Assembly: GCF_029784135.1 (NCBI RefSeq)
Contig: NC_073746.1
Location: 17,126,416-17,190,415 of the forward strand
Reading direction: 5' to 3'
DNA from: Toxorhynchites rutilus septentrionalis
Lineage: Eukaryota; Arthropoda; Insecta; Diptera; Culicidae
Length of the DNA: 64,000 nt
Shown: positions 5,037 through 56,901 of the stretch, piece by piece
Layout: each line of letters begins with the position of its first letter
How positions within the stretch are numbered: position 1 is the stretch's first letter
The notes under the pieces: model-generated
Told to the model about the DNA's origin: nothing
What the model saw: the letters and a program-made list of their open reading frames with translations, nothing else
Database searches by the model: none
Made by a program: the position numbers and the translations under genes

Positions 5037-5365
5037 CCTACACTGGAGAAAAACTTTAGTAAATGCAGCTACCAAATCTTTAGTAGTCGTAACATTTGTA
5101 AAATGTACACATTTTGACGTAGGACTACGTCTTTCATTTCTATACCGGGGTGTAAAATCAAAGTTTCGAAAACGAAAGCGTTACGCCGGAGACCGAGATT
5201 TTGAGCGTTGATAGCTCCTAAACAACTGAACGAAATGGTATGATAAACACTTCATTCGAAAGATAAAATGTCTACGCGTTCTATACTTGTTACTTTTTGA
5301 TCCAAAAACTTGTTTCAATAGTCTTAAAATTGCTTTCAAAACAAGCTATTGAAATCACCAATCGG

Positions 5366-5402
5366 TATATAAGCGAGCGCCGCTCGGAAATCCACTGAGT
5401 TC
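5366..5402 (+). promoter_or_regulatory. TATA/initiator core promoter in element A
   Basis: TATATAAG at 5366-5373 is followed about 30 bases later by CTGAGTTC. In copies B and C the same position reads ACTCAGTT or ACTCAGTT-like, an insect TCAGT initiator. In A the initiator appears mutated. The spacing fits an RNA polymerase II core promoter of the kind used by histone genes. Function is inferred. Confidence 0.45.
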
Positions 5403-5580
5403 TAATTGAACAGTGATTGGAGCATGTTGTCGCTGTTGTGGTGAAGCTCTTTGTTTATCATGAAAGCGCGGATGAACGGTGTCAGCAAGAGCCTGTTTGT
5501 GCACCTTAGGCCAGAAGGGAATCCATCAGGAGGAGAGTGATGCCACAAACGGTTCCCCGGGAAGATCTCGAAGCAGCCGC

Positions 5581-5600
5581 TACACACACACACACACACA
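5581..5600. repeat. CA microsatellite in element A
   Basis: Ten alternating AC units. Shorter runs occupy the same position in the second block at 6368-6380 and in copies B and C. Confidence 0.9.
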
Positions 5601-5649
5601 TACATGCGCGGAATTCTTTCCGTTTGGATGCCATTCAGCATCGAGAAAG

Positions 5650-6860
5650 ATCCGGAAAATTATCTGCCCGTTCCTCTGGGAATTTAAAAATACATTCATG
5701 TGAAAGAGTTTATTTGAATGTTTTGTATCCATGTAACACTGTGACCAAATATTTTTCAATCAAGTGCTATTAACAGGTGGTTATCGAATTAGCATTAACC
5801 ACTGGTGGGCTTCCAGTATCGAGGAAAATGTGGAAATATATAATCGTTACTGAAAATAATCCGCCAGTTCCTCTGGGAATCCAAAAATACATTCATGTGA
5901 AAGAGTTTATTTGAATGTTTTCTATCCATGTAACACTGTGACCAAATACATTTGGTTTTGTGATTTTTCAATCAATCGCAATTAACAGGATAGGTTCTGA
6001 AGATTATTCTTCCCCATCAGTAGGATATTTCCGTATCAAATGTAGTATGCGCCCGCAATAGATTATTGCTCAGTCGCCGAAAGTTCCGAGCTCAGAGAGT
6101 TCATTCCTCTCTAGTTTGCCTTCCAAATTGCCATCGTAAACCACGCCTTCTCTCGATTCAATCACGCACAATAAACATACTTAAGCGATATTCTGGTGTT
6201 GAGACGCATTCATTTTCCGTGAGGACATCGACAAGACAACATTGTTGCTGAGGGTGCTGGAAGGATCGAGATCTGCCCTGAAACGCAAGCAGTTTGTTTG
6301 AAACTGTGAGGGAGCACAGACAAGCCGATCCTTCAGGAGAAGAGAAGGTGACCATCGAAGCAGCCGCTACACACACACATACATGCACGGAATTCTTTCC
6401 GTTTGGATGCCATTCAGCATCGAGAAAGATCCGGAAAATAATCGGCCAGTTCCTCTGGGAATTTAAAAATACATTCATGTGAAAGAGTTTATTTGAATGT
6501 TTTCTATCCATGTAACACTGTGACCAAATATGTTTCAATCAAGTGCTATTAACAGATGGTTATCGAGTTAGCATTAACCACTGGTTGGCTTTCAGTATCG
6601 AGGAAAATGTGGAAATATCCAATCGTTACTGAAAATAATCTACCAGTTCCTCTGGGAATTTAAAAATACATCCATGTGAAAGTGTTTATTTTAATATTTT
6701 CGATCCATGTAACACTGTGACCAACTATTTTTCAATCAAGTGCTATTAACAGGTGGTTATCGAGTTAGTATTAACCACTGGTGGGCTTCCAGTATCGAGG
6801 AAAATGTGGAAATATCTAATCGTTGCTGGAAAATAATCTGCCAGTTCCCCTTGGAATTGA
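5650..6860 (+). repeat. Diverged ~200-bp internal repeats of element A
   Basis: Blocks containing AGTTCCTCTGGGAATT, then ACATTCATGTGAAAGAG, then a CACTGTGACCAAATA segment recur near 5660, 5865, 6445, 6645 and, more diverged, 6840. Between blocks there is a conserved stretch with ATTAACCACTGG. Copy C has two such blocks at 38440-38720 in inverted orientation, so the array varies in number between copies. Confidence 0.65.
6066..6251 (+). other. 61-codon ORF shared by elements A and C
   Basis: A frame beginning MLSRRKFRAQRVHS is open for 61 codons here and for 61 codons in element C at 38141-38326 on the minus strand, with about 10 replacements. I do not recognise it. Repeat copies share reading frames by descent, so conservation alone is weak evidence for a protein. 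Confidence 0.25.
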
Positions 6861-7197
6861 AAATTACATTCAAGCGAAAGAGTTTAATTTAATATTTTCT
6901 ATCCATAAAATATCCATATAATACATTTGGGTTTGTGATTTGTCAATCAAATGCAGTTAGCAGGATAGCTTCTGAAGATTATTCTTCAGATCAAGGTTTT
7001 TTCGTATCCTATATTGGATGCATAAAACCTTGTGTCTCCAACGTAACATTCTCGTTTTCGAAGTCCCCCAAATATTAATTTATTCATTCATTCAGAATGG
7101 ATTTAGATTCAACTTCAAACAAATGATCTCTAAATGAACGATAGTCCTACGTCACCCTTGCGGTTATACCATAGATATAACCCACTTCCTGTTTTTT

Positions 7198-11787: not shown

Positions 11788-14502
11788 AATTGTTTCAGAT
11801 TTTTGCTATCACTACAACTCTTCAAGCCCGTTTGAAGTTTGGAGTTTTGAATGAGTTAAATTTACGGATTTCTGTACAGTTACAAAATTTATTTCAAAAG
11901 CAATTGTTTCAAAGCCCTACGTCAAGTTCCCGTCCGTGTCCGTGTCTCTAGGCACAGAGTTGTCTACTTTTTATTTGGTTCCAATTCATTCATGAACCGC
12001 TAGTGCCTTCTCCGTATTTAGTATTTCCGAATTACGTTAGATAGCAGAGTATTTCACTTTATTCTGGAAGCCACCTTACGTTTCGACTCTTTTTTGATAC
12101 CCGAGTCGGTAACATATGAGAACTCGACTTCAAATCTCACCTAGTGTCAAACTATAGTCACGTCATTCGCCCTCGGGGACACCGTAACTTGAGTCATCTC
12201 ACGTCATTCGCCGCGCGGAATAAAGGGGATTATCTGAAAATTATGCGACGTTTGCTTATGGTCAAATCGCCTACAATGATGGCGAAATAACTGATGGACC
12301 TTGCACCAGGACACAAAACTCAGAAGAACAGCGACATGTGGCTATTTAATAAACAAACCACCGATTTATTTTCTATTTTCTACTTTTGATTTATTTACAG
12401 ATTTGTATTACCTCCAGTTTGTTGTTCTTCCGCAAAGGAAAACACTAAGCCACAGAACAACAAGTCAGGTTCAAAGTACAGCGTTAGTTTCCAGTTTGTA
12501 TTTTCCATTGATATCGTGTGGATTCGCGCTCTGCATGTCAATTTGTGGACGTTATCACTGGAAATCAGTCCTCCCTCATGGGCAAATCGAATATCTTATC
12601 GCGTATGACTTTGGGGTAACGATTAACAGCGCTTCTGTTCAACCGATAATCCGTTAGCAAATTGGGAAATAATCCTTGCACACATAGATTTCAAATTTTA
12701 AAACCAACCGCCACGGGCATTGGAGCCCTTCGCATTCACGTGTGCAGCGAGGGCCAACCTGATTATTCCCGAGCGCGCGCGTGTTCTGCCACCTTTCGGG
12801 CTGTTATCATCGTGCGGAGCGCGGTTTTAATCGCGTTCTGATTTACGTCAGCGCTGCCTGTGGGTGTACTTTGACCGCACTGAACTCTTGTTTGTTTATT
12901 GTTTCACCCGATTCCGTCCGAACGTTGATGACTACCCACTTCGACTTCGACTGTGGCGAAAGAAGGGGGGCTCTTATCATTGGCAAGCCGAGCGTGTCAT
13001 TTCAAACTGCGTTTTGATGAGTGTTTTTATTTTAATGGGAACAGCACTGCTTCAACTCGATTCGAGCATTGTTTCAATCGTGGTCGTGGGTACTGGTCAA
13101 GTGCTGGGGAGCGATAAACGGTCACTCCACAGGGAGGGCTGCTTTACGCTGCCGATTAATCATTCGAAGAATTTTTGCACCACTGGCTGCGGACTCTGCA
13201 CAGACTTCAACGACCAAGTGGGTCATGTTTTGGGATTCGCACAAAAAGTAAACAGTTCCAAAGTACGAGTGTAGCGAGTGAGCTTTTTCGACTCTAGGAA
13301 GAGAATCCTCAGTACGGACATTCTCACGATGATAATGGTGGCGGTGATGGTTTTTTAATTCGTCTCATCTCGCTTGATGGTGCAAGAGTACAAGATTGTT
13401 TCGAAATGGACAAAAGTGCGCATCGCCGAAACAGATTAACATTTCTTCACTTATGGAGTAGAATGAATTTTTAAACTGATTGCGATTTCCTATCGAAATT
13501 TAATACCTCCTGAACTTCAATGGACTTGTTTTGCTTTGTATTTCTTAAATGGCACTAACGTTCTTAAAGGAACATCGCCGTCTCAACCTGCGGCGCTCAC
13601 CGTTCTCAAAGCAGCGAGGCAATAAAATTTCGAAATAACCTCTGGCTCTCTGCATTAATATGTACTGTTGATGGCTCGCTGTCTAGAGGGACAATGAAAT
13701 ATTCTGAAATAAAACGTTAAGCGTTGTTAAGCGTACAAAAATGTCGAGTTTTATTCCAAATAAAAAGCATTTGCGCTATTTATATTTTTTTTTCATTCAA
13801 GCGCTCGGTATCATCTGCTTGGCATTATGCTATTTCGAGAGACCAAAGCGCGAAGAAATCCCACCTCCCTGGAGCAGGGCGAAAGCTCAATCGCCAAAAT
13901 TGTTCGGCCAATGAGTGTCTGTTCGCGCAGCACTTACTTTCGTGGCTTTGAGTTTAAATAAAAAAAAACCATATCGGTAAAATGTTTATACTATACTTTT
14001 TATTAATTTATAGAGCGGATGGTTTGTAGTGCAGCTTTTTGCGAAACCCATATAATATGACTTTGGCATGTGTTATTGTTGTCAATTCATCTTCAAAATA
14101 AATAAAGTATTGCTAGATCATGTAAAAGTAGTCTACAAACTAAGTTTGATTTTCATTAAATAATTTCTACCCAAGTTGGGGTCAGAAAAGTCGCTTTGGG
14201 CGACAAACGTGTTAAGGATGGTCGGTCGAAGCAAGATGCATACAAGGGGATGCTTTGGGGAAATTGTCTTCGGCTGAGCTTGAGTTCTGAATCGCGAGAT
14301 ACCCTGCGTGTTATCTGAGGACTACAATGTTCTTCGACCATTTTACTCAGAACTGTCCAACATCGCGGAACCATTGTGCGTTTTGTTCGCGATCGTTAAT
14401 TATAAAAAAAAATTTTTTTGTATAACGTGGAGTCTTTACGATACTAAATTCGAATTGTTTCAGTGTGATCATTGTTCCTAGTAAGCAAAGAAACGCACAG
14501 TA
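11788..14502. other. Intergenic sequence, no gene identified
   Basis: Near 11916-11955 the sequence CCCTACGTCAAGTTCCCGTCCGTG resembles, in complement, the left terminus of element C (about 37381-37405), so a fragment of that family is likely. The 12.7-13.3 kb part is GC-richer and has overlapping open frames up to 136 codons with no recognisable domain. I treat these as chance frames. Confidence 0.4.
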
Positions 14503-14892
14503 AAAAAACAGGAAGTGGGTTATATCTATAGTATAAACGCAAGGGTGACGTAGGACTATCGTTGATTTAGAGATTATTTGTTCAAAGTTGAATCTAAATC
14601 CATTCTTCGAAAACGAGAACGTTACGTTGGAGACTCAAGGTTTTATGCATCCAATATTGGATACAAAAAACCTTGTTCTGAAGAATAATCTTCAGAAGCT
14701 TTCCTGCTAACTGCACTTGATTGACAAATCACAAAACCAAATGTATGTGGTCACAGTATTATATGGATAGAAAACATTAAAATAAACTCGCTTGAATGTA
14801 ATTTTCAATTCCAAGGGGCACTGGCAGATTATTTTTCAGCAACGATCACTTCTTTCCAGGTTTCTTCTCGATAACCAGCAAATGAAAAGAGC

Positions 14893-14926
14893 TGCGCGCG
14901 CGCGCGTGTGTGTGTGTGTGTGTGTG
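14893..14926. repeat. CG then TG dinucleotide repeat
   Basis: Alternating GC/CG followed by about ten TG units. It occupies the position of the CA repeat in element A. Confidence 0.9.
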
Positions 14927-15001
14927 GCGGCAGCTTCGATGTCTTCCCGGGGAACCGTTTTTCGATGCTGATACTCTCTTGATCACCTTCTCTTCTCCTT
15001 C

Positions 15002-15305
15002 GCACCAGCTGCAGGAAGTGTGAAGAAGCCACATCGCTATCTACCGGGAACTTTGCGTGAAATTCCTCGCTATCAGAAATCGACCGAATTGCTGATCCGC
15101 AAGCTACCTTTGCAGCATTTGGTTCGTGGAATTGCTCATGAATTCAAAACCGACTTGAGCTTCCAAAGTTCCGTGGTTATGACGCTGCAGGAGGCCTATT
15201 CGAAGATCCCAAATTGTGTGCTATCCACGCAAAACGCGTCACATCATGCCCAAGGACATTCAGCTGGCCCATCGTATCCGAGGAGAGCGTGCTATATTAG
15301 CTTAG
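15002..15305 (+). pseudogene. Histone H3 pseudogene inside element B
   Basis: Translation from 15002 follows core histone H3 from about residue 29: [10 protein letters not shown], then [13 protein letters not shown], then [10 protein letters not shown]. After a break it resumes in another frame with [10 protein letters not shown], and after a further break [16 protein letters not shown] close to the normal H3 C-terminus, with a stop a few codons later. Two residues are missing after PGT, about eight are missing before the LCAIHAK block, and a one-base loss follows RVT. There is no intron, as expected for a replication-dependent histone. The N-terminal tail (about residues 1-28) is absent. It cannot encode a working nucleosomal H3. 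Confidence 0.88.
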
Positions 15306-15317
15306 CATATAATCAAC

Positions 15318-15333
15318 GGCCCTTTTCAGGGCT
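15318..15333 (+). terminator. Histone mRNA 3' stem-loop after H3 pseudogene
   Basis: GGCCCTTTTCAGGGCT forms a 6-bp stem (one G-T pair) with a TTTC loop, the consensus shape of the stem-loop that ends replication-dependent histone mRNAs and binds SLBP. It lies about 15 bases after the H3 stop. Its integrity shows that the whole 3' end of a histone gene was acquired, not a polyadenylated cDNA. Confidence 0.85.
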
Positions 15334-16349
15334 CCAAATTTGATGGATTAGAGTTCAGAAACGTTTTTTACAGGCCGAACTGAAAGGAGCATTTAGCGAA
15401 AATCGTGGTGTCGATGATAATTCGATACTGATAGGTGCCATGAATATGGATTTGATAGTGAAGAATATGAAATACATGACATGATGTAGTGAATATTTCC
15501 CCATATCGAAGAAATCACTTTGATGAAACTACATTATAAAATTATTTGTGTACGAATGCCGCAATCGATAGTCGACTCTAATTTGTGCTGGGTAATTTCC
15601 TCGGAGGAATCGATTCCTCCTTTGAGCATTAATAATCTTTTTCTGGCAAAACGAAGTGGTATGAATCACATTATTCGAAAGATGAAATGAAGATGTTTTC
15701 TGCCAATTTCCTTCAACCTCCAAACATCTTTTTCTCCCGTTTGTCGATTTTGCGTTCGCTAATCCTTTCTCACAACACCCATTTCTCGTTTGAGAAATTG
15801 TTGAGTAAACGATGTTTGCCAGTGCGCGTAGAGCGGGAATTCCTAAAGATTCATTGCACCTCTAATAAATTGCCGGAAGACTTGGTCTTACGTTGATCGC
15901 ACTTGATTGAAAAATCCAAAACGAAATGTATTCGGTCGCATCATTATATGAGTAGGAAGCAAATAATCGCTCGAAAATTACATGATTTTCGCGATGTGAA
16001 AACGTTTTCCGTTTTTCATGTTATGCATCCAATATTGGATATGACAATTTTCTACTAATGGGGAGAAATAATATTCAGAAGCTTTCCTGTTAATTGAGAT
16101 TGATTGAAAAATCACAAAACCAAATGTATTTGGTTGCAGTGTTGTATGGATAGAAAGCGTGTATGTGTGTGTGGCGGCTGCTCCGATGTTTTAAGCGGAA
16201 CCGTGGCATCACTCTCCTCCTGATGGATTCCCTTCTGTCCTAAGGTGCACAAACAGGCTCTTGGTACACCGTTCATCAGCGCTTTCATGATAAACGAAGT
16301 TAGCTTCATCACAACAGCCACAACATGCTCCAATCGCTGTTCAATTATA

Positions 16350-16385
16350 ACTGAGTAGGTTTACGAGCGGCGCTCGTTTATATAC
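16350..16385 (-). promoter_or_regulatory. TATA/initiator core promoter in element B
   Basis: On the minus strand TATATAAAC (16376-16384) is followed about 25-30 bases downstream by TACTCAGTTATAATTG. It is the counterpart of 5366-5402 and 38979-39014. Confidence 0.45.
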
Positions 16386-16636
16386 CGATTAGTGACTTCA
16401 ATAGCCTGTTTTGAAAGCAATTTTAAGGCTATTGAAACAAGTTTTTGGATGAAAAAGTAACAAGTATATAACGCGTAGACATTTTATCTTTCGAATGAAG
16501 TATTTATCATACCATTTCGTTCAGTTGTTTAAGAGCTATTAACGCTCAAAATCTCGGTCTCCGGCGTAACGCTTTCGTTTTCGAAACATTGATTTTACAC
16601 CCCGGTATAGAAATGAAAGACGTAGTCCTACGTCAA

Positions 16637-37224: not shown

Positions 37225-37505
37225 TGAATAATAAAGAAAACATTTTTTTCGCAAGCGTAGTATTTATAAAAAAAAACTAGCTCATTGTTCTATTTCCATC
37301 ATCAGAATCAGTCCATTGGTTCAAAAGTTATGAAATTTCGAAAAAAATATTTTTTTGGAAAAACAGTACAAGGGTGTAAGCCTAGGGGCACGGACGGAAG
37401 TGTGACGTAGGACTGTGATTGTTCGGAACAGTTGGTTTTTTTTAATGTAATTCTCTCCATTGTTCAGAAATCTATTATTTTAAATCTTTTGAAACTCCAA
37501 ATGGT

Positions 37506-37521
37506 GGCCCTGAAAATGACC
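37506..37521 (-). terminator. Degenerate histone-type stem-loop in element C
   Basis: On the minus strand GGTCATTTTCAGGGCC keeps the TTTC loop and five of six stem pairs (one G-T) of a histone 3' stem-loop. The GG..CC outer pairs are retained. No histone codons were recognised upstream on that strand. Confidence 0.4.
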
Positions 37522-38978
37522 GTTTGTTATATGTACCACAAACATTATTTGCTTTTCATCAGAGATCGGAAAGTAACCTTTAAAAGATGTTTTGCCTTGT
37601 TGAAAGAGACGATGTATCAGACAATTAAATCATCAATAATTAATTCTGAGGTTAATGTAATGGGGACGAAGACCCTATTTAATGCGGATAAGGAATCGAG
37701 GCGGCTCCAAGCCGCCGAGGTGACGTGATCAGAGTCGGCCGCCGAACCGCCGTCGGAAGTGGCGGCCTCTCGCAAGCAAACATGTGTTCCACTGATTGCC
37801 CGGTTAGTTTAAAACATAGGAGACGATTCTTTAGTAAGGTCCGACCATGTTTTATAGGTAGTTTTTTCCGGGCCTATCTTGATAAGTTCCAACTTGATAG
37901 TTCCGCTCTCAAGCTGTTCGATGGCATCCTTCACTTCACCTATCGCTGGGAACTGCCATATCTGCAGTATTTTGCATCATGTCTGAAAAAATCTAGCTTT
38001 TGCTGTTTTTTTAAGCATTGAAAACACAAAACGGAGTTTAAACGCTAGAATAAACGGCTTCTCTGTGCTCCCTCACAGTTTCAAACAAACTGCTTGCGTT
38101 TGTTTGCGGGCAGATCTCGATCCTTCGCCGTCCAGCACCCTCAGCATCGATGTTGTCTTGTCGATGTCCTCACGAAAAATGAATGCGTCTCACCACCAGA
38201 ATATCGCTTAAGTATGATTTTTGTGCGTGATTGAATCGAGAGAAGGGTTGTTTTAAGATGGCAATTTGGAAGGCAAACTAGAGGGGAATGAACTCTCTGT
38301 GCTCGGAACTTTCGGCGACTGAGCAATAATCGATTGCGTGCGCGTACAATATTGGATACGGAAATATCCTACTGATGGGGAAGAATAATCTTCAGAAGCT
38401 ATCCTGTTAATTGCGATTGATTGAAAATCACAATACCAAATGTTTTGGTCACAGTGTTACATGGATAGAAAACATTAAAGTAAACTCTTTCACATGAATG
38501 TATTTTTAAATTCCCAGAGGAACTGGCAGATTATTTTCAGTAACGATTAGATATTTCCACATTTCCCTCGATACTGGAAGCCCACCAGTGGTTAATGCTA
38601 ACTCGATAACCACCTGTTAATAGCACTTGATTGAAACATATTTGGTCACAGTGTTACATGGATAGAAAACATTAAAATAAGCTCTTTCACATGAATGTAT
38701 TTTTCAATTCCCAGAGGAACTGGCAGATTACTTTCCGGATCTTTCTCGATGCTGAATGGCATCCAAACGGAAAGAATTCCGCGAGTGTATATGTGTGTGT
38801 AGCGGCTGCTTCGAGATCTTCCCGGGGAACCGTTTGTGGCATCACCCTCCTGATGGATTCCCTTCTGGCCTAAGGTGCACAAACAGGCTCTTGGTGACAC
38901 CGTGCATCCGCGCTTTTATGATAAACGAAGAGCTTCACCACAACAGCAACAACATGCTCCAATCGCTGTTCAATTAGA

Positions 38979-39014
38979 ACTGAGTGGATTTCCGAGCGGC
39001 GCTCGCTTATATAC
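38979..39014 (-). promoter_or_regulatory. TATA/initiator core promoter in element C
   Basis: On the minus strand TATATAAG (39006-39013) is followed about 25 bases later by CCACTCAGTTCTAATTG. TCAGT at this spacing is an insect initiator. Copy C has the least altered version of the three. Confidence 0.5.
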
Positions 39015-39498
39015 CGATTGGTGATTTCAATAGCCTGTTTTGAAAGCAATTTTAAGGCTATTGAAACAAGTTTTTGGATCAAAAAGTAACAAGTATATAA
39101 CGCGTAGACATTTTATCTTTCGAATGAAGTGTTTATAATACCATTTCGTTCAGTTGTTTAGGAGCTATTAACGCTCAAAATCTCGGTCTCCGGCGTAACG
39201 CTTTCGTTTTCGAAACTTTGATTTTACACCCCGGTATAGAAATGAAAGACGTAGTCCTACGTCAAAATTCGTTAGGTAGTGTCATTCCCGAGACCCAAGG
39301 GGTGGTTGGTTCAGTGTCACCGGTCGGATTAGGGTAACCTTCCCCTATGGTATAGCAATATAAGATCAATATGAGCAAGTGAAACAAGAGACACATTGCA
39401 AATTCGCGTACACTGCCACATACACGGCCCAGATCGAGATGGATATAGATCTCCTGTATGCTTTCTTTTTTACTCTAAGAAAACACTTTCCAACTTAA

Positions 39499-40905: not shown

Positions 40906-41025
40906 TGGATAACGTGGTCGTGTAAAACTACCTTGCATTCCTGCTGGCCTACGATCCTCGTTGTCAACGTTTGGATTTTTTTTGGATGCAATCCCAAGCT
41001 GACGTTCACTCTGAGAGAAAGAGAT

Positions 41026-41188
41026 TTTTTTTTTTTTTTTATTATCTGTATTATAGTGACTTTCAACTCATTTGGCTGGTTCGTCACTTTTACTTCCATT
41101 TTTTGGAAGAATGTCGGGAGTGAGAATTGAACTCGTGACCTTTAGCGTGAGAGGCATGGATGTTACCACTACGCCAGATCGCCTCCAC
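41026..41188 (-). mobile_element. tRNA-derived SINE, copy 2, with target duplication
   Basis: It is inverted relative to copy 1 and complete: head with A and B boxes at the right, body, and T-run (A tail) at the left. The 12-bp duplication AGAGAAAGAGAT lies at 41014-41025 and again at 41189-41200. This fixes both ends of the SINE. Confidence 0.88.
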
Positions 41189-41595
41189 AGAGAAAGAGAT
41201 GTCTTCTCCCATACATACAAACATTTCAAAGCGTTTGAAACAGATGCTTTTATTTGTTCATTTCACCTTCAGCACACGAAAAAGCTTTTTTTTCTGCCGA
41301 AGATTCAATTTTTTCTGGCAACGTTAGTTTGAGTGTACATTGATTGATCTTCAAATTGACCTTTTTCAAAGTACGAGACGAATGAATTTTGTATTTTATA
41401 GCCTCTACAATAAAAAAAGACGGGTGGGTAATGTCGGGGACATAACCGTAGTGACGTAGGACTATACAAAGGGGACAGCTTTTGTTAAATATATATTTTA
41501 AATATATTGTTTTATTTTCTTCTCCTACGTGAATACCTACCTAGCTACCTGAAAAATGGATTAGTTTACTGTTTACTCTTTATGAACATGTTGGT

Positions 41596-41611
41596 GGTTC
41601 TGAAAAGAAAC
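41596..41611 (-). terminator. Degenerate histone stem-loop downstream of H2A copy 1
   Basis: On the minus strand GTTTCTTTTCAGAACC keeps the TTTC loop and most stem pairs. It lies about 240 bases downstream of the end of H2A similarity at 41851, on the same strand. Confidence 0.45.
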
Positions 41612-41850
41612 TTTGGTGTTGTGTTTTTGTTATCACTCGATATTCCCATCTTGTTCGGTTAAACATTCCTGTTTAGCTGTTGCGTTTACCACTCGCCACA
41701 GCTTTCACAGTTGGAAAATTTCTTCCCATCCAGCTTGTGACATATTGTTCAGTAAATTACATTTAATGCGACGTGCCGGAGAAACACTTTGCCACTCACT
41801 GAAACTAATTGTTGCCTTGATGAGCGCCGAACCAAAGCTGCTCTGTTCTT

Positions 41851-42080
41851 GATGCGGGTTTTCTGATTGTCGTGAGCAGCTTTGCAAGCCAACACGAGCA
41901 CTCCGACGGCTGAAACTCTATAATCGCTGTAAGGTATACTGGTGCTCCGGCACCAATCCGTTCGGCATAGTTACCCTTGCGGAGCAATCAGTGAATGCGA
42001 CCAACAGGGAACTGGAGACCTGCACGGTTCGAGTGAGACTTTGCCTTTCCCTTAACTTGTCCTCCTTTGTTACGTCCACG
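41851..42080 (-). pseudogene. Histone H2A pseudogene, copy 1
   Basis: One minus-strand frame reads [21 protein letters not shown], then LQFPVGRIH, a stop in place of R, then [31 protein letters not shown] and ending at KPASR. This tracks H2A from about residue 3 to the region before RIIPRHLQLAI. The start codon is lost, a stop interrupts the first helix, and the docking-domain end is replaced by unrelated sequence shared with copy 2. There is no intron. It cannot make a functional H2A. Confidence 0.88.
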
Positions 42081-42318
42081 AAGCCGATGCCGTACAACCA
42101 CACGGGTTTACGGTTTGAAAGAAAATAAGATATTTTTTTGGGGTCCGCGTGTTTTATACTCTAGCGGTACACACTCACAGGATAGAGACAAATCGGCAGA
42201 CTCAGCCAGAGGGGCGAGTCCAACGAGACGAACGAATGAGCGTTAAAAGGGAGCGATGGCAAAAAAATACATTCATTACGATTTGTTCGCTCGTTGGATT
42301 CACATGCAGGCTAAAAAG

Positions 42319-42334
42319 GGTCCTTTTCAGGATC
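42319..42334 (+). terminator. Histone stem-loop on the opposite strand (H2B-side remnant?)
   Basis: GGTCCTTTTCAGGATC forms a full 6-bp stem (one G-T pair) with a TTTC loop and is preceded by a TAA. H2A and H2B genes are commonly divergent. This signal on the plus strand, upstream of the minus-strand H2A, is where an H2B 3' end would lie if its coding part had been deleted. The H2B link is inference. Confidence 0.6.
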
Positions 42335-42915
42335 ACAACATTATCTTTAATCTGAAGAGTTTAATGTTTTGTTATCACTCGATATCCCCATCTTGTTCGG
42401 CTAAACCTTCCTGTTTAGCGATTTGTTGCCACTCGCCACAGCTTTCACAGTTGGGAAATTTCTTCCCATCCTGCTTGTGACATGTTGTACAGTAAATTAC
42501 ATTTAACGCGACGTGTCGAAGCACCATTCAGTGTCGCATTGGAGGCGATTTTAACCTGTAATTGAACAGTGGTTCAGTGTCGACTTTCAATGTGGGGTCA
42601 TAATTTGGATCTCTATGTTTACAAAAATGTCCAACTAAATAAGTCGCATTACATGTCCGTCCAATTAGCTAAATGTCGAACTAATTGTAAATTACTGTAC
42701 TTTCAATCTGGAAACAATTTAAGAATTGGTGAAAATTGAATAATCAGGAAAGTCCCCAACTATCAATAAGCTCAGAACAACTGCCAAATTCACATACTCA
42801 TCAGATCCTGGCAAACAAATTATGAAAAAATCAATTTGTGTTTTATTATTATTTTGGATATTGTTTTAGAAAGCATTGAACTGTATTTGCTAAACTCTTT
42901 TTTGGAAGGTTTAAT

Positions 42916-42931
42916 GGCCCTGAAAAGCGCC
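42916..42931 (-). terminator. Histone stem-loop downstream of H2A copy 2
   Basis: On the minus strand GGCGCTTTTCAGGGCC keeps the TTTC loop and five of six pairs. It lies about 235 bases downstream of H2A copy 2, the same spacing as in unit 1. Confidence 0.5.
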
Positions 42932-43166
42932 TTGTTTTATGGAATGGTTCCAATTTAGAAAACTTAGTACTCGTGGTTTTGAAAAAAACTATTTCGAACG
43001 CCCTCGATGCCGCCTTGTTCTGGATTTGCCACCAAAGCAGTTTGTATAAAGAACAAACTTTTTTCTTCTGCTACCTGCTGCCGTTTTGCGATTGCGTTTG
43101 CCACTCGCCACTCGCTGCAACTGCCTGTTGTCTTGATGTCCACCGAACCGAATGTGTTCTGTTCCG

Positions 43167-43374
43167 AATGCGGGTTTTCTTATCGTCGCGAGTAGCTTTG
43201 CCAGCCAACTCGATCACTTCGGCGGCCGAAGCTATATAACGCCGGCTAGGTGGACTGGTGCACTGGTTCTAAAACGTTCGGCCTAGCTACCCTTGCGGGG
43301 AACTCCAGATCAACACGGTTCGAGCGGGATTTTGCCTTTCCCTTCACTTTTCCTTCTTTACCATGTCCAGACAT
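43167..43374 (-). pseudogene. Histone H2A pseudogene, copy 2
   Basis: The minus strand retains a start codon: MSGHGKEGKVKGKAKSRSNR, then VDLEFP. A deletion removes the VGRIHRLL region. The similarity continues at nucleotide level through the [17 protein letters not shown] and EYLAAEVLELAGNA regions, with frame changes (readable pieces: AAEVIELAGKATRDDKKTRI in one frame). It ends at the same point as copy 1. The two copies are diverged, so they did not arise by a very recent duplication. Confidence 0.85.
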
Positions 43375-44454
43375 GGCTGCTTGGGTTGGTTTGTTGATGT
43401 GTTGTGATGCGAACCGATGTGGTGTACGGTTTGAATGAGAATGATCGTTACGGAAGGAAGGAAGGAAGGTATTGTATTATAGAGACTTTAAACTTTTGCA
43501 GTTCATTCGTCTCTAGCCTTGAGAAAGGCCCTTTGAAAACTCTACTCTACTTTACTCCAGCGCTACCACCTCCGACCATTTGCCTTGAGAAAGGCACTCG
43601 ATCCCTCGCCGTCCAGCTCGTCCAGCAACGATGTTGTCCAGTCGGTGTCCACACAAAAAATGATCGTTACGGCAGCGGAGCGGGGATTTTTAAGCTGACT
43701 GGCTGGCTCGAGAATTACGCATGTGTGAGACTGCGACCAATGTTTCGTTAATTTTTTTCTTTTTCCTTTCCAATCGTGCTTCATTCTATTTCGCTGCTGC
43801 TCTGGTTGCCCGTTTTGGTCGGTACGATTTGAGGAGCACAAAATGGACCAATAAAAAATGGGCACATAGTGCATTTTGACAATGCTTGATATTAAACAAT
43901 TATTTAATTATTTATCCCAAGAAAAATTAAATGTTATTCGTTATGATAGATGCGTAGGTATATTTCCTATCAATTGATGCAAAAACCTTTGCGATCTATT
44001 GAGAAATGCTCGAGTTATGAGCGTTCCAAATCTTGCATTTTTTCCTACTTGTTCAGTGCCTAGATTTGCATTTCACCCCCTATATCTTTCGGTTAGACGT
44101 AGTCCTACGTCAAAAAAATATGAGAAACAGAATATTTTCGTAGCTTCCAGCACAAGTATATAAAAAAAAATGGAGGTTGTGTCCAAAATACGACCTCATT
44201 GTTGACGTAGAACTACTGTTATTTTGTATAAGTCGCATGTTTATAACTTCGTATACTATTTTATAATGCTGTGAAATTTTAGAAATAACTGTTTGGTAGA
44301 ATGTCATGTCATCATGCTACATGTTATTTAGTATCGCCTCAGTGGAATCGCACCTTTAGGCATCGTTCTTACAACGTAAACCAAGCGCCAAACAAGCGTT
44401 CGCCATAGAATGCATACAGAGCCATACATTGGTGGCTTGAAGCTACTAAGCCTA

Positions 44455-45751
44455 AAGGGTGTGTCACATCAAATTGCATCACGGAAAAAGCGCTGTAGAA
44501 ATTAATTTTTTAGGAATTATATCTTCAGCTTTCGCTTATAACCAGATAAGAGTGTATAGATCACGTTGACCATGCTTCACTGTCAATTTTTCGTAAATTT
44601 GGAAAAATGTCGTCGAACGAAAAAGAGCGTCGTGAATTAATCCTGTACACTCATTTCGAGAATCCGGAGTTGTCACATCGGGACATCGGTAAGATGCTGG
44701 GAATCGTCTAATCCACGGTCAGCAGAGTACTAAAACGATACTTCGAGAACCTAACCATCGACCGGAAGGTGAAGAACGGCAAAAATGGATGCTCCGTTAG
44801 TGAAAAAGATCACAAGCGCGTAGTTAGGCAGTTTAGACGTGATCCGAGAAGTTCGGTCCGGGATGTCGCCAATAAGCTGAATTTGTCAAGTTCATTCGTC
44901 CAGCGGACCAAGCAGCGGGAGGGCCTGCGTACATAAAAGGTTCAGAAGGCTCCTAACCGCGACGAAAGGCAAAACATGGTGGGGAAGACGCGAGTCCGGA
45001 AGCTGTACACCGAAATGCTGACGAAGCCGCATTTCCTGGTAATGGACGACGAAACCTACGTCAAAGCGGACTTTCGTCAGCTGCCGGGCCTGTTGTTCTT
45101 CTCCGCAGAGGACAAATTCAGCGTTCCGAAGGAGATTCGCAAGCAGAAACTATCCAAGTTTGCCAAAAAGTACATGGTGTGGCAAGCGATCTGCTCTTGC
45201 GGAAAGCCGAGCGCCCCCTTCGTGATGACCGGCACGGTAAACGGGCAGGTTTACCTTAAGGAGTGCCTACAGAAGCGCTTACTACCACTATTGAAGCAGC
45301 ACGAGGGCCCGACCATCTTCTGGCCGGATCTCGCTTCGTGCCACTATTCAAAGGACGTGTTGGAGTGGTACGAAGCCAACGGGGTCACTTTCGTGCCAAA
45401 GGAAATGAACCCGCCCAACGCGCCGGAGCTTCACCTAATAGAGAAATATTGGGCGATTATGAAGCAGGCCCTCCGGAAGAACCCAAAAGTTGTCAAATCG
45501 GGGGCGGACTTTAAGAGAAAATGGATTTCTGTTAAAAAAAACCACAACCTGACGTTGTACAGAACCTTATGGACGGGGTAAAGAGGAAGGTGCGAGCATA
45601 CGGGCTTGGGCTCGAAGTATGAATAAAAAGAAAATGCCAAAAGTTGTTTAATAGTTTTTATTTTACTGTCTAAAATTTTCAAAAGGATCGGTCTACTGGG
45701 CGAATTTCTACAGCGTTTTTTCCGTGATGCAATTTGATGTGACACACCCTT
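44455..45751 (+). mobile_element. ITmD37E transposon
   Basis: The two ends are near-perfect inverted repeats of about 48 bp, starting AAGGGTGTGTCACATC, each flanked by TA (44453-44454 and 45752-45753). The length is 1297 bp with a single transposase frame, the organisation of the mosquito ITmD37E family of the IS630-Tc1-mariner group. Confidence 0.9.
44607..45622 (+). pseudogene. ITmD37E transposase, broken
   Basis: It starts MSSNEKERRELILY and has a helix-turn-helix region (SHRDIGKMLGIV, then STVSRVLKRYF). Catalytic residues are the aspartate in VMDDETYV, the aspartate in FWPDLASCHY and the glutamate in LIEKYW. Exactly 37 residues separate the last two, which defines DD37E. In-frame stops follow GKMLGIV (near 44710) and QREGLRT (near 44936). 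A frameshift in an A-run near 45533-45541 shifts the last ~25 residues (DGVKRKVRAYGLGLEV ends at 45622). The enzyme would cut and paste the element at TA sites, but this copy is dead. Confidence 0.88.
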
Positions 45752-47005
45752 TATAAACACTGTAGCGCCCCTTAATAAGATTAATAAGATATCTGTTCCA
45801 ACTAGAACTGAGAGTGGATTCATACATGATTTTCGAATAAGAATATCGGAATTTTCCATACACATGGAAAATTCCATAAATCGTGAGATAGAACGGTAGA
45901 GAGATAAACAGAGAGTAGGTAAGAATAAACAAACTCTGCATGTGGAGTGCAGTCGGTAGGAATTTAGATTAAGAATGTTTCGTTAAGAAAATTGCATAAA
46001 ATAAACGTAAGTCGGAACTCACAGCTTGGAGTAAAAAGTTGTTTTATTTCCTAAAGAAAGTGGCTTAGACCGCTCGGGCGCACCTCTCATCATTTTGCAT
46101 TATTATCAAAAGAAACGCTTCTGTTAATATTACTGGTCTCGGAAAAAGTTACATTATTTCCTCATGCTTAAGATAAGCGCAGCTGTCATATACAAATGGG
46201 GTTTCAGCGTAGCGAAGATGCACTATTTTTACGGGTTATGAAGCACGCACGTACGCACACAGATATCCACATATCGATAGCTTGAAGCAATTAAATATAC
46301 CCACACTTATCTCCGTTTTGCGCTCTTCTCAACAGAAGCCCTTCCTGTTTATATTATCAGTCTAGATTAGCTTAGCTCTCATCCTTTGTGGAGAGAGTTT
46401 GCGAAACCAAAATTCCAGAACATTTATTTTCTAGCTTGATGATTCCCCACACAATTGTGTAGCTCAGAACCTTAATGCAACGGCGTCAGTTTGATGAAAT
46501 GATTGCCAGAGATATCAGCGAGTTAGAAATTTGGTTGCACAGCTCAATCCGAAATGAAGACATGTGATGACGCACAAGCGATGTTCATTGCCTTGAATAC
46601 AGAACGTGATACACTGTTTACACTCTAGGCAAGTATTCCCCTTCATTCTTTTTCTTCTTTTCCTTTGTTCACGGGAACTTTAAATCTTATGATTTCCCCT
46701 TCGTTGCTCGGCGATAAGTTGCGCGTTATTGCCAGCTCTGTTCGGGAAAACACATAAATGGACTGAACAAATGTATGGGGAAATTGAAACGCTTATAGTT
46801 TTCATGAATTTTAACCATTTACACACCAGGGGATCGTAATGTATAGCATATCAAACAAATCTTAGGGAATTTTCGATTCGTTTGGTATGTAAATCGCCAA
46901 AATCCGTTCATGGCAAAAATTGTTATTCACGTTAACTTTATTTCATAAAAACGTGACCTGTTTTCTGATTTGGCACCCTTAATGAAAGACGTAGTTCTAC
47001 GTCAA

Positions 47006-53665: not shown

Positions 53666-54975
53666 TTGTTAAAAAATAATTGACTTAATTGTTTGAAAAG
53701 TTGCAAAATTTTGTGATGTGAAAAGCTGTAATTTTGTGATGAATTTCGTAACCTGAAGCTATACTTATATAATATGCTTTTTTCAAAGCTACAAATTTTA
53801 GAATCTATTACTCACACATTTATGTATTTTTGTTGGAAAATTAATCCTAAATCGGCAACAGAAAGTCCTAAATAATTTGTGTGGGCGGCAACTATAGCAA
53901 TCGCAGTGGAATGAGTTTCCACCTCCAGTTTTCAACCAAAGAACAAAGCTATCACAGTTGGAAAATTTCTTCTTCCCATCCGACTTGCAATGATGTCACT
54001 TTTAACCCGGTAACAATGTACAAATTTGCGAAAATTGATTGTTTGATCGGAAAGTCACCAAACACTAACTAACCTCAAAACACTCCTAAATTCGCACGAG
54101 CTTTTCAATTTGCTTTTTATTATCTCTATTCTCAGTTTAGAATAGAACGAACTGTTGCGTTGAACTGTATTGAAATAACTCTTTGGGATTCAGTCTCGTG
54201 TCGCTATGCGTCGCCAAATTCGTGTCTGTATTGTACCAATTATCTCTTCTCCCGGACAAACTGGATGTAGCCACATTCAATTTTGCATCAGAATCTTCAC
54301 TGGATCGATTACACGAATGTGATGGGTGACGGTTACCCCCTGAATGCCAGGAAAATTTAAATTCGTTGGTTAGTGCTACTGCTACCCACTGCTGAGAATA
54401 TTGGTGATGCTGTTATGCTACAGTTCCTTCGTGGGTGTGTGCTATTTTGCGGGTAGAAAATGAATGATCGGTTCGGAAAGTTTCGAAATTTATCCGAATT
54501 GACTGGCTGTAGAATCACACAAGGGTGGGATTTACGACGCGAAGTTTCGCTATTCCTTTTTATTGTTATTCCCTTCTAATAGAATAATATGCACAATGGA
54601 TAGCTACGATTTTGCAGTCGTATCAATGTTTTCAAAATGTAGTCCGCTGTTAGTGGAATTTTTTGGTCGGTACAATTTGAGGAGCACAAATTAGGCCAAT
54701 CAAAACGTAAGAATTAGCGCGTTTAGATAATGCTAGACAATTGACAAGCATTGAATTGTTTATCTCAAAAAATATTTATTTTATTTATTGTGATAGATGC
54801 GTGAGAATACTTTTAATCAGTAGATGCAAACATTTTTGCGATCTATTAAAAAAATATTAGCAAATGGTTGACTTATTAGCCATCTAAATCTATCATTGTT
54901 TCCTACAAGTTCAGTATTCTGTTTAATTTTACCCTCTATATTTGACTGTTAGTCCTGGTTCTACGTCAATAAAAT
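53666..54975 (-). mobile_element. Palindrome-ended element H (relative of D), one end clear
   Basis: The right part (54640-54975) aligns with the right part of element D: GTACAATTTGAGGAGCACAAA, then GATAGATGCGTGAGAATA, ending with a diverged TAGTCCTGGTTCTACGTC. The segment at 53930-53990 (TCACAGTTGGAAAATTTCTTC) matches D near 41705 and 42445. The left boundary is not defined. I recognise no histone codons at 54110-54500. Confidence 0.45.
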
Positions 54976-55894: not shown

Positions 55895-56901
55895 TTGACG
55901 TAGAACTACGTCTTTCAGGAAGGGTGCCAAATCAGAAAACAGGTCACGTTTTTGTGAAATAAAGCTAACGTTGATAACTTTTTTTCACAGAGAACAAATT
56001 CTGATACTTTGCACACCAATGGAATCGGAAATTCTCTAAGATTCGTTTGATATACTATACAGTACAATTCACTAAAGCCTAAACAGTTTAAATTAATGAA
56101 AAATTGAACCATTCTCATTATCCCATACATTTGTTCTGCCGATTTGTGTGCATTCCCGAACAGAGCTGTCAATAACGAGCAACTGACATTCGTTTTTGCC
56201 CGTTTTCAACATATTTGATTTAAATAAGCCATCCGCGATTTGAAGCCACACCACTTCTCGTTTGGTGGTCATCGAAGCAACATGGTTGCCACAGAGCGTC
56301 TAGCGGGAGAGGATTGTTTTCTTGTCGGGTGAAGGAGAAGTATGGAAAAGAGTATGGAAGAGACTTTCCACAAGGGTCCTTTTCAGGCGGAAACTGAAAG
56401 GAATAGAATGAAAACACAGATGCGAGTGAACTAGCATAACACAACGATCGGATATCATTCATACTTAATGCTGGTTTCACACACATACACACACAGTTAA
56501 ACACAAGCAGAGGAAACCCTCTGTAATTCCAGCAGGGTAACCTTACTGTTGCATGTTGTGAGGTTCGATCACATCTCAAGCGGAATATAGGAGCATAAGG
56601 ATTCATAGTTTGTGATCGATATCTGAGTGGGAAGGAGAAAGGCTTTCGACTCTACTCGACTCTTTCGGGTCTACTGAAGTAATAAAAAATTAAATAGCTA
56701 AAAAGATATAACAAAAATTTCGATGCATTCTAAAATAATATCCGAAGTGATAAACAAGTGGATTGAATAATATAATTCCGCAATTCTACGTCGAAAACTG
56801 CAGTCGTGTCCTAGATACAACCCATTACAGTTTTCAATTTTGCGACATGCTCCGTTCTGAGACCCCTCTATATAGAAATAAAAGACGTAGTTTTTCGTCA
56901 A
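55895..56901. mobile_element. Palindrome-ended element F
   Basis: Both ends carry the palindromic motif: GACGTAGAACTACGTC (55897-55912) and the altered GACGTAGTTTTTCGTC (56884-56899). The inner right sequence (CTATATAGAAATAAAAGACG) resembles A-C. The inner left sequence (TTTCAGGAAGGGTGCCAAATC) matches the right end of E. A stem-loop-like GGTCCTTTTCAGGCGG lies at 56375-56390 on the plus strand with several mismatched pairs. The length is about 1.0 kb with no transposase. Confidence 0.55.

Follow-up and report, generated by a model that had tools for sequence, protein, structure and literature searches.

Histone gene pieces carried by non-autonomous Helentron-type elements in the genome of Toxorhynchites rutilus septentrionalis

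Elements and histone pieces in the window

The window, by which we mean the whole stretch of 64,000 nucleotides analysed here (NC_073746.1, positions 17,126,416–17,190,415), contains six elements, designated A to F, which we describe as HINEs for reasons given below; other loci of the assembly are referred to by L numbers. Element D, of the gamma subfamily, is 2.7 kb long including its terminal Ts and has both termini. It occupies 41412–44111 on the minus strand, with its 5′ end at 44111. An earlier note, based on the sequence of the window, had already recognised this element at 41417–44113; its limits are here corrected to approximately 41412 (with Ts) and 44111. The element is 95.6% identical to the copy at L029 over 2066 bp. 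Its 5′ terminal palindrome GACGTAGGACTACGTC (44096–44111, minus strand), located by pattern search and folded as a hairpin, has the T-run outside it and forms one part of an asymmetric terminal inverted repeat (ATIR). The 3′ copy of this repeat, which reads TAGTCCTACGTC in the 5′ to 3′ direction of the element, was placed at 41453–41464 (minus strand) by comparison of 3′ ends, and a subterminal hairpin, GGTTATGTCCCCGACATTACC, was identified at 41427–41447 (minus strand) from folding and from the pairing of 17 variants described below.

Between these ends lie two H2A pieces, both on the minus strand. Piece 1 (43158–43374; tblastn, three fragments, E 2e-13) is frameshifted and interrupted and is also present in L028, L029, and L033; a pattern search identified a stem-loop-like site behind it, GGCGCTTTTCAGGGCC, with one stem mismatch (42916–42931, minus strand). 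Piece 2 (41857–42083; tblastn match 42083–41898, E 2e-28) contains a TGA stop that is common to sister copies, and its DNA matches a functional H2A at 73.5%. A third stem-loop-like site at 41596–41611 (minus strand), identified by pattern search and alignment of sister copies, is degenerate in D, with three mismatches, and is a perfect stem, GGTTCTTTTCAGAACC, in four sister copies (L029, L052, L054, and L055). On the plus strand, the stem-loop GGTCCTTTTCAGGATC at 42319–42334 (a 1-mismatch match) is placed and oriented as in the captured H2B gene discussed below; tblastn found no H2B coding sequence in D, and did find it in L033.

Element B (14502–16634, minus strand, paired ends, 5′ end at 16634) belongs to the alpha subfamily. 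It contains a frameshifted H3 piece antisense to the element (15002–15293, plus strand; tblastn, E 7e-36), followed by the H3 stem-loop GGCCCTTTTCAGGGCT at 15318–15333 (plus strand, a 1-mismatch match). The H3 piece in B and the two H2A pieces in D had been read from the sequence in the earlier note, and the tblastn matches agree with that reading. Element A (5116–7197, plus strand), also an alpha HINE, has a paralogous empty site in L038 and contains 197-bp tandem units at 6433–6906; similar units occur in B and C, and resemble the central repeats of HINEs. Element C (37359–39263, minus strand) has an alpha-type 5′ end and a stem-loop-like site with one mismatch at 37506–37521. The two beta HINEs are E (44162–47003, minus strand) and F (55897–56836, plus strand), the 3′ end of F being read by eye and lying outside the 30 paired ends considered below. 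Within E there is a transposase-like frame of 214 residues, which by eye we take to be Tc1/mariner-like and which is perhaps a nested insertion.

F has a weak stem-loop-like site at 56375, with three mismatches. The earlier note had suggested histone pieces in both C and F. The stem-loop-like sites are there; however, at E ≤ 10 no histone coding sequence was found in C, and F gave a single 12-residue H3 match at chance level (E 5), so that histone content is not confirmed and the claim for these two elements is weak. In the window as a whole there are six histone stem-loop-like sites against 1.00 expected, the largest number in any shuffle being five. Four of them have a single mismatch (15318 in B, 37506 in C, 42319 and 42916 in D). 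We also note a 161-bp repeat at 41025–41185 and 567–726, with copies 96% identical, which presumably resembles a tRNA-derived SINE, judging by its A and B boxes.

Termini, insertion sites, and element class

The GACGTAG palindrome has 17 matches in the window at up to three mismatches, corresponding to 10 distinct places because most are counted on both strands; 0.62 matches are expected, and none of 100 shuffles reaches 17. Across the genome (902.6-Mb assembly, 514 contigs) there are 32,014 exact sites, and none for the reversed pattern used as a control. The palindrome marks the 5′ end of a numerous group of transposons, and the family with shared termini proposed in the earlier note is supported. 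Oriented copies were taken from two sets of 20 anchor loci, from the 6 window elements, and from 8 short loci, 7 of which cover sites already represented; they read Ts followed by GACGTAG(G/A)ACTACGTC, and the sequence outside is unrelated between copies. At least TT precedes the palindrome, except in L010 (one T), L032 (TTTTC), and L020 (a reversed reading). The sequence inside the palindrome falls into three main types: alpha (A, B, C), beta (E, F), and gamma (D). When the 40 anchor loci were sorted automatically, 19 fell to alpha, 15 to beta, 4 to gamma, and 2 to other types; L031 and L041 are misplaced in this sorting, and the gamma count is safe. Degenerate palindromes at 54952–54967, with gamma-like inner sequence, and at 56884–56899, with alpha-like inner sequence, are probably older members of the same group.

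The 3′ end has a common layout, seen in 34 candidate ends: TAGTCCTACGTC, then 5–9 nt, a hairpin, approximately 8–12 nt, and a T-run, with a poorer fit in L010, L014, L035, and C. The inverted repeat is asymmetric, being at the tip of the 5′ end but approximately 40 bp inside the 3′ end. The sequence of the hairpin varies by type while its pairing is kept: over 17 distinct variants, 83.0% of cells are paired, compared with 34.6–39.2% when the structure is slid. These variants were picked by eye from the 34 ends and L052, omitting L043, C, and the second copy in L040; the structure was named by hand. Against column shuffles the margin is modest (83.0 vs. 80.7% of cells paired, 27 of 500 as high); the covariation score is 0.237 against 0.191 (4 of 500 as high), and 10 cells are changed on both sides against 5.7 (6 of 500). 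In the same 17 variants, the number of pairs changed on both sides (2) and the number of pair types (8) are not above column shuffles, and pair 6–20 is unpaired in 10 of the 17. Folding of single sequences gives weak z-scores, namely −1.5, −0.7, 0.0, −0.7, and −1.7 for five 3′ ends and −2.1 for the 5′ palindrome.

Pairing of ends by a nearest rule gave 30 elements with both ends, or 29 independent ones, as an inverted copy in L048 is counted twice; for L010, L014, and L035 the 3′ end is uncertain. The flanking T-runs are 0–7 long on the 5′ side and 4–10 on the 3′ side, and no other common flank was seen. When the flanks are joined, they match element-free sequence contiguously, and the match is clean for 5 of the 30 elements: A (against L038), L019, L021, L022, and L030 (against the window). 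A match for L041 was rejected as an artefact, hitting the end of another element, and matches for L030 against L028 and for L032 were poor or unclean and were not counted. Each clean empty site has a single T-rich run where the flanks meet, from which we conclude that the elements insert into T-runs and duplicate nothing else. In L048 (positions 601–1163), the same HINE is present twice together with its flanks, the two copies facing opposite ways, which represents either an inverted duplication or an assembly fold-back.

These features can be set against those of Helentrons and HINEs. The palindrome follows straight after the 5′ Ts and TAGTCCTACGTC lies approximately 40 bp before the 3′ terminus, where the palindromic subTIRs of a mite HINE lie 2–4 nt from the 5′ end and 38–60 bp from the 3′ end, as given in the description in PMC4067079. 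A hairpin is found within 8–35 bp of the 3′ end, and the target is TT in T-rich DNA, with a variable number of terminal Ts and no other duplication. Because of the palindromic ATIR at both ends, the 3′ hairpin, the variable terminal Ts, and the T-run empty sites, we classify the elements, on sequence grounds, as non-autonomous Helentron-type rolling-circle elements (HINEs). Helentrons are separated from other Helitron2 elements by an endonuclease domain in the partner. A canonical Helitron (Helitron1, with 5′ TC, 3′ CTRR, and insertion at A/T) was rejected, as the ends are GACG… and …TTTT and the target is a T-run.

A profile search with PF14214 gave at least 132 Rep matches among the best 150 of 1313 candidates scored, some of them in open frames of up to 1674 amino acids, and a rolling-circle enzyme is probably encoded in the genome. 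Non-autonomous Helentron and HINE copies have been described as more than 95% identical to their autonomous Rep/helicase partner. The GACGTAG palindrome (up to three mismatches) is absent from 2.7-kb stretches around two Rep frame starts, L050 and L051, each including approximately 2.1–2.2 kb before the frame, and neither of these two loci yielded an autonomous element ending in GACGTAG palindromes. A different palindrome, TTAATCGAACGATTAA, is present at L051:684–699, approximately 1.4 kb before the Helitron-Rep frame, with a 30-bp match recurring in L048; it may mark the 5′ terminus of a separate Helentron family.

Histone cargo across the genome and its source

Histone pieces are present downstream of the palindrome in 5 of the 40 anchor loci: H2A in the gamma loci L018, L028, L029, and L033, and H3 in the alpha locus L027. 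The anchor loci are the first palindrome sites on C1, rather than a random sample of the genome, and 20 of them reach only 2 kb past the anchor, so that five is a minimum. H2A thus occurs in all four gamma anchor loci or, with D, in five of five. In the opposite direction, an H2A protein search was used, in which the best 150 of 20,768 first-look candidates were scored. Of these, 64 are full length without stops, and come mostly from arrays on C2, C3, and small contigs. Among the other 86, there are 63 that have exactly one TGA and one TAG and run from H2A residue 3 or 4 onward; C3:272064500, with the same stops but 90% identity, was left out of this number. Five dispersed matches, chosen at about even steps down the table of 86, all lie in gamma elements, with a 3′ terminus and a differing flank in four, while the fifth stretch ends within the terminus.

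The gamma 5′ end (a 43-mer, up to three mismatches) has 8680 sites in the genome, and a 51-mer from H2A piece 2 has 4604, both with reversed controls of zero. Roughly, then, either half of gamma carries the cargo, or the 51-mer counts only the less diverged copies. The two are linked. Upstream of 24 of the 26 exact cargo sites in C1 0–19.74 Mb there is a same-strand exact gamma end at a distance of 1.49–3.74 kb, with none on the wrong side and none on the opposite strand; random placement gives a mean of 0.326 and a maximum of 3 in 2000 trials. Of the two unlinked sites, C1:3503820 has a bare palindrome 1.7 kb upstream, and C1:11960787 has no palindrome upstream among the sites listed. Reciprocally, an exact cargo site accompanies 24 of the 100 exact gamma ends listed and is missing from the other 76; with mismatches allowed, the genome totals point to about half. 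The remaining gamma elements may have lost this H2A piece, changed it, or never had it. Dispersed copies with shared breakpoints, a possibility raised in the earlier note, are found. It had also named two ways of being wrong, namely that the termini are unrelated to the histone segments or that these are pseudogenes of a single locus; neither is what the linkage shows.

The alpha subfamily carries an H3 piece separate from the gamma cargo, in at least two copies: B and L027 share the piece and its stem-loop, in an alpha background and antisense to the element, the 3′ end of L027 lying beyond the stretch examined. A Pfam scan at E ≤ 0.001 gave nothing in D (one frame) or in 10 elements (three element-sense frames). 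It also missed the H2A of D and L033, which served as a positive control, and is therefore silent on other cargo.

The copy at L033 shows the form of the captured DNA. Here H2B and H2A pieces are divergent and approximately 300 bp apart, compared with approximately 260 bp in the functional pair at L049. A gapped alignment of the two covers approximately 930 bp of L049, starting approximately 24 bp outside the H2B stem-loop, crossing H2B and the region between the genes, and ending at approximately codon 76 of H2A. BLAST gives H2B (66% over 361) and H2A (77% over 226) as separate matches with the promoter unmatched, and the intergenic part can be aligned only by opening many gaps; the promoter itself was likely captured as well, although this is weakly shown. 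Because two divergent genes in one block cannot derive from one mRNA, capture was at the DNA level, as the earlier note had favored over retrocopying. A retrocopy or processed pseudogene was rejected on the same block, which also runs past the H2B stem-loop. Both H2A pieces of D run into related sequence after about the same codon (41791–42068 against 43107–43359, 71%), which would point to an internal duplication.

Of four host H2A genes, the one in the C3 array is nearest to the cargo. For H2A piece 2 of L029, differences at codon positions 1, 2, and 3 are 15/82, 11/82, and 22/81 from the C3-array gene and 18/82, 11/82, and 45/81 from the C2-array gene, third positions over the other three genes ranging from 45 to 49 of 81. 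L033, L053, and H2A piece 1 of L029 agree on the C3-array gene as nearest; piece 1 of L033 aligns poorly and is uninformative. On this comparison the cargo appears to have come from a C3-like histone array. The C3 array (L057, C3:233553741) and the C2 array (L049, C2:101654744) encode an identical H2A protein and differ at 36 of 82 third positions; main-array H2A and H2B are 100% and 94% identical, respectively, to Drosophila-type proteins.

The cargo of L029 is approximately 20% diverged from the nearest functional H2A compared (48 of 245 sites), and six gamma copies differ pairwise by only 1.9–4.0%; the capture is therefore older than the burst. Minority letters in eight gamma copies are distributed 12/12/12 by codon position over 82/83/83 columns. 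Such numbers are to be expected without selection, and the cargo decays. Inclusion of the divergent copy L018, which dominates the count, gives 22/24/34 over nine copies.

Probable capture by HINEs, rival explanations, and known systems

The observed termini, empty sites, shared breakpoints, copy number, divergent block, and neutral decay are very probably explained by HINEs that captured a divergent H2B–H2A block, which then decayed and was amplified to thousands of copies, the alpha subfamily having a separate H3 piece. Non-autonomous HINEs would move by rolling-circle copying, with Rep/helicase supplied in trans. The gamma ancestor would have taken up a genomic block, consisting of the divergent H2B–H2A pair of the host with its stem-loop, from a C3-like array, either by end-bypass or after inserting beside a histone gene. 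The histone module would then have been partly duplicated inside the gamma element and have decayed to a pseudogene before being passively amplified to thousands of copies. Of these steps, we infer the rolling-circle copying, the supply of the enzyme in trans, and the route of capture.

The earlier note had described a Pack-type element, that is, a DNA transposon with terminal inverted repeats, MULE-like, which took up histone pieces and inserts with a target duplication. Pack-TIR and Pack-MULE elements have symmetric TIRs and fixed-length target duplications, neither of which is seen here. An inverted repeat is indeed common to both ends, and T-runs at both sides could mimic a duplication. 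However, the repeat is asymmetric, the flanks share only Ts in varying number, and the empty sites matched by the joined flanks contain just one T-rich run, so that this description did not hold up and we regard it as highly improbable. If instead local tandem histone pseudogenes or retrocopies merely lay near unrelated palindromes, the decay of the window pieces and the duplicated H2A within D would be natural; but breakpoints and stops are common to dispersed copies, cargo and 5′ end are linked in 24 of 26 cases where 0.33 is expected, and one captured block holds two divergent genes, which is impossible for a retrocopy. The reverse search and the linkage refute this explanation, to which we give practically no weight.

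It is also conceivable that gamma gained its cargo in another species and entered by horizontal transfer, which would fit a cargo approximately 20% from the nearest functional H2A compared and copies only 1.9–4.0% apart. The cargo is, however, clearly nearer to the host C3 array than to the other three H2A genes, which makes such a transfer very unlikely. Capture from the host by HINEs remains our preferred explanation. A more speculative and improbable extension is that Helentrons favor replication-dependent histone genes as cargo, possibly to their own benefit, through action in S phase near histone loci. If true, capture would be repeated, as for H2A/H2B and H3 here and the two fragments reported from Culex, and what is kept of the promoter and stem-loop could provide transcripts made in S phase without poly-A, or link the element to the regulation of histones.

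Genome-wide capture of histone sequence by non-autonomous Helentron-type elements is thus strongly supported. Once captured by a Helentron-type element, a histone block of several genes can come to rank among the commoner repeats of a genome, and this case offers a readable source of capture, breakpoints, and later decay. In practical terms, similarity-based annotation of histones in such genomes would be swamped by thousands of transposon-borne pieces.

Of the earlier interpretation, the family of shared termini, its dispersal, and DNA-level capture stand; the Pack type is not supported, the histone content of C and F is not confirmed, and the novelty does not stand. The note had known of no description of such elements; however, Helentron-Cq-32A of Culex quinquefasciatus was reported in 2014 to have histone fragments in eight copies, and, according to PMC4067079, no other organism had a documented case of a Helentron capturing histone sequence. 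Among the open-licence PMC papers listed, we found no later report of histone capture by a Helentron or Helitron. As described there, Helentron-Cq-32A shares with the present elements decayed histone fragments, palindromic subTIRs, a 3′ stem-loop, TT insertion, and variable Ts; its family has an autonomous Helentron, and its gene fragments are of the “H4 superfamily”/smart00428 and H15 (PMC4067079). The two families, compared by description, differ in that here there are thousands of copies, an H2A/H2B block, and H3 in another subfamily. With Culex, recurrent histone capture becomes a testable idea.

According to the corresponding sections of PMC4067079, HINE/DINE-1 elements likewise have ATIRs, a 3′ palindrome, central tandem repeats in some cases, very high copy number, and a T-run target, and the layout found here is that given for HINE-Mo and the Culex Helentrons. 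Gene fragments are described there as less frequent in Helentrons and HINEs than in maize or bat Helitrons; the present elements differ from those HINEs in that approximately half of the gamma ends go with a counted cargo site. Helitron2/FoHeli elements, as outlined in PMC5148889, resemble them in having an ATIR with the 3′ copy approximately 20–50 bp inside the end, hairpins at both ends, and, for Helitron2, a T-rich target; unlike them, FoHeli is fungal, and histone cargo is unmentioned in that outline. Pack-TIR and Pack-MULE elements also capture and copy pieces of host genes, as summarised in PMC8277862. Helentron histone capture is therefore known in kind; its scale and its H2A/H2B content are new.
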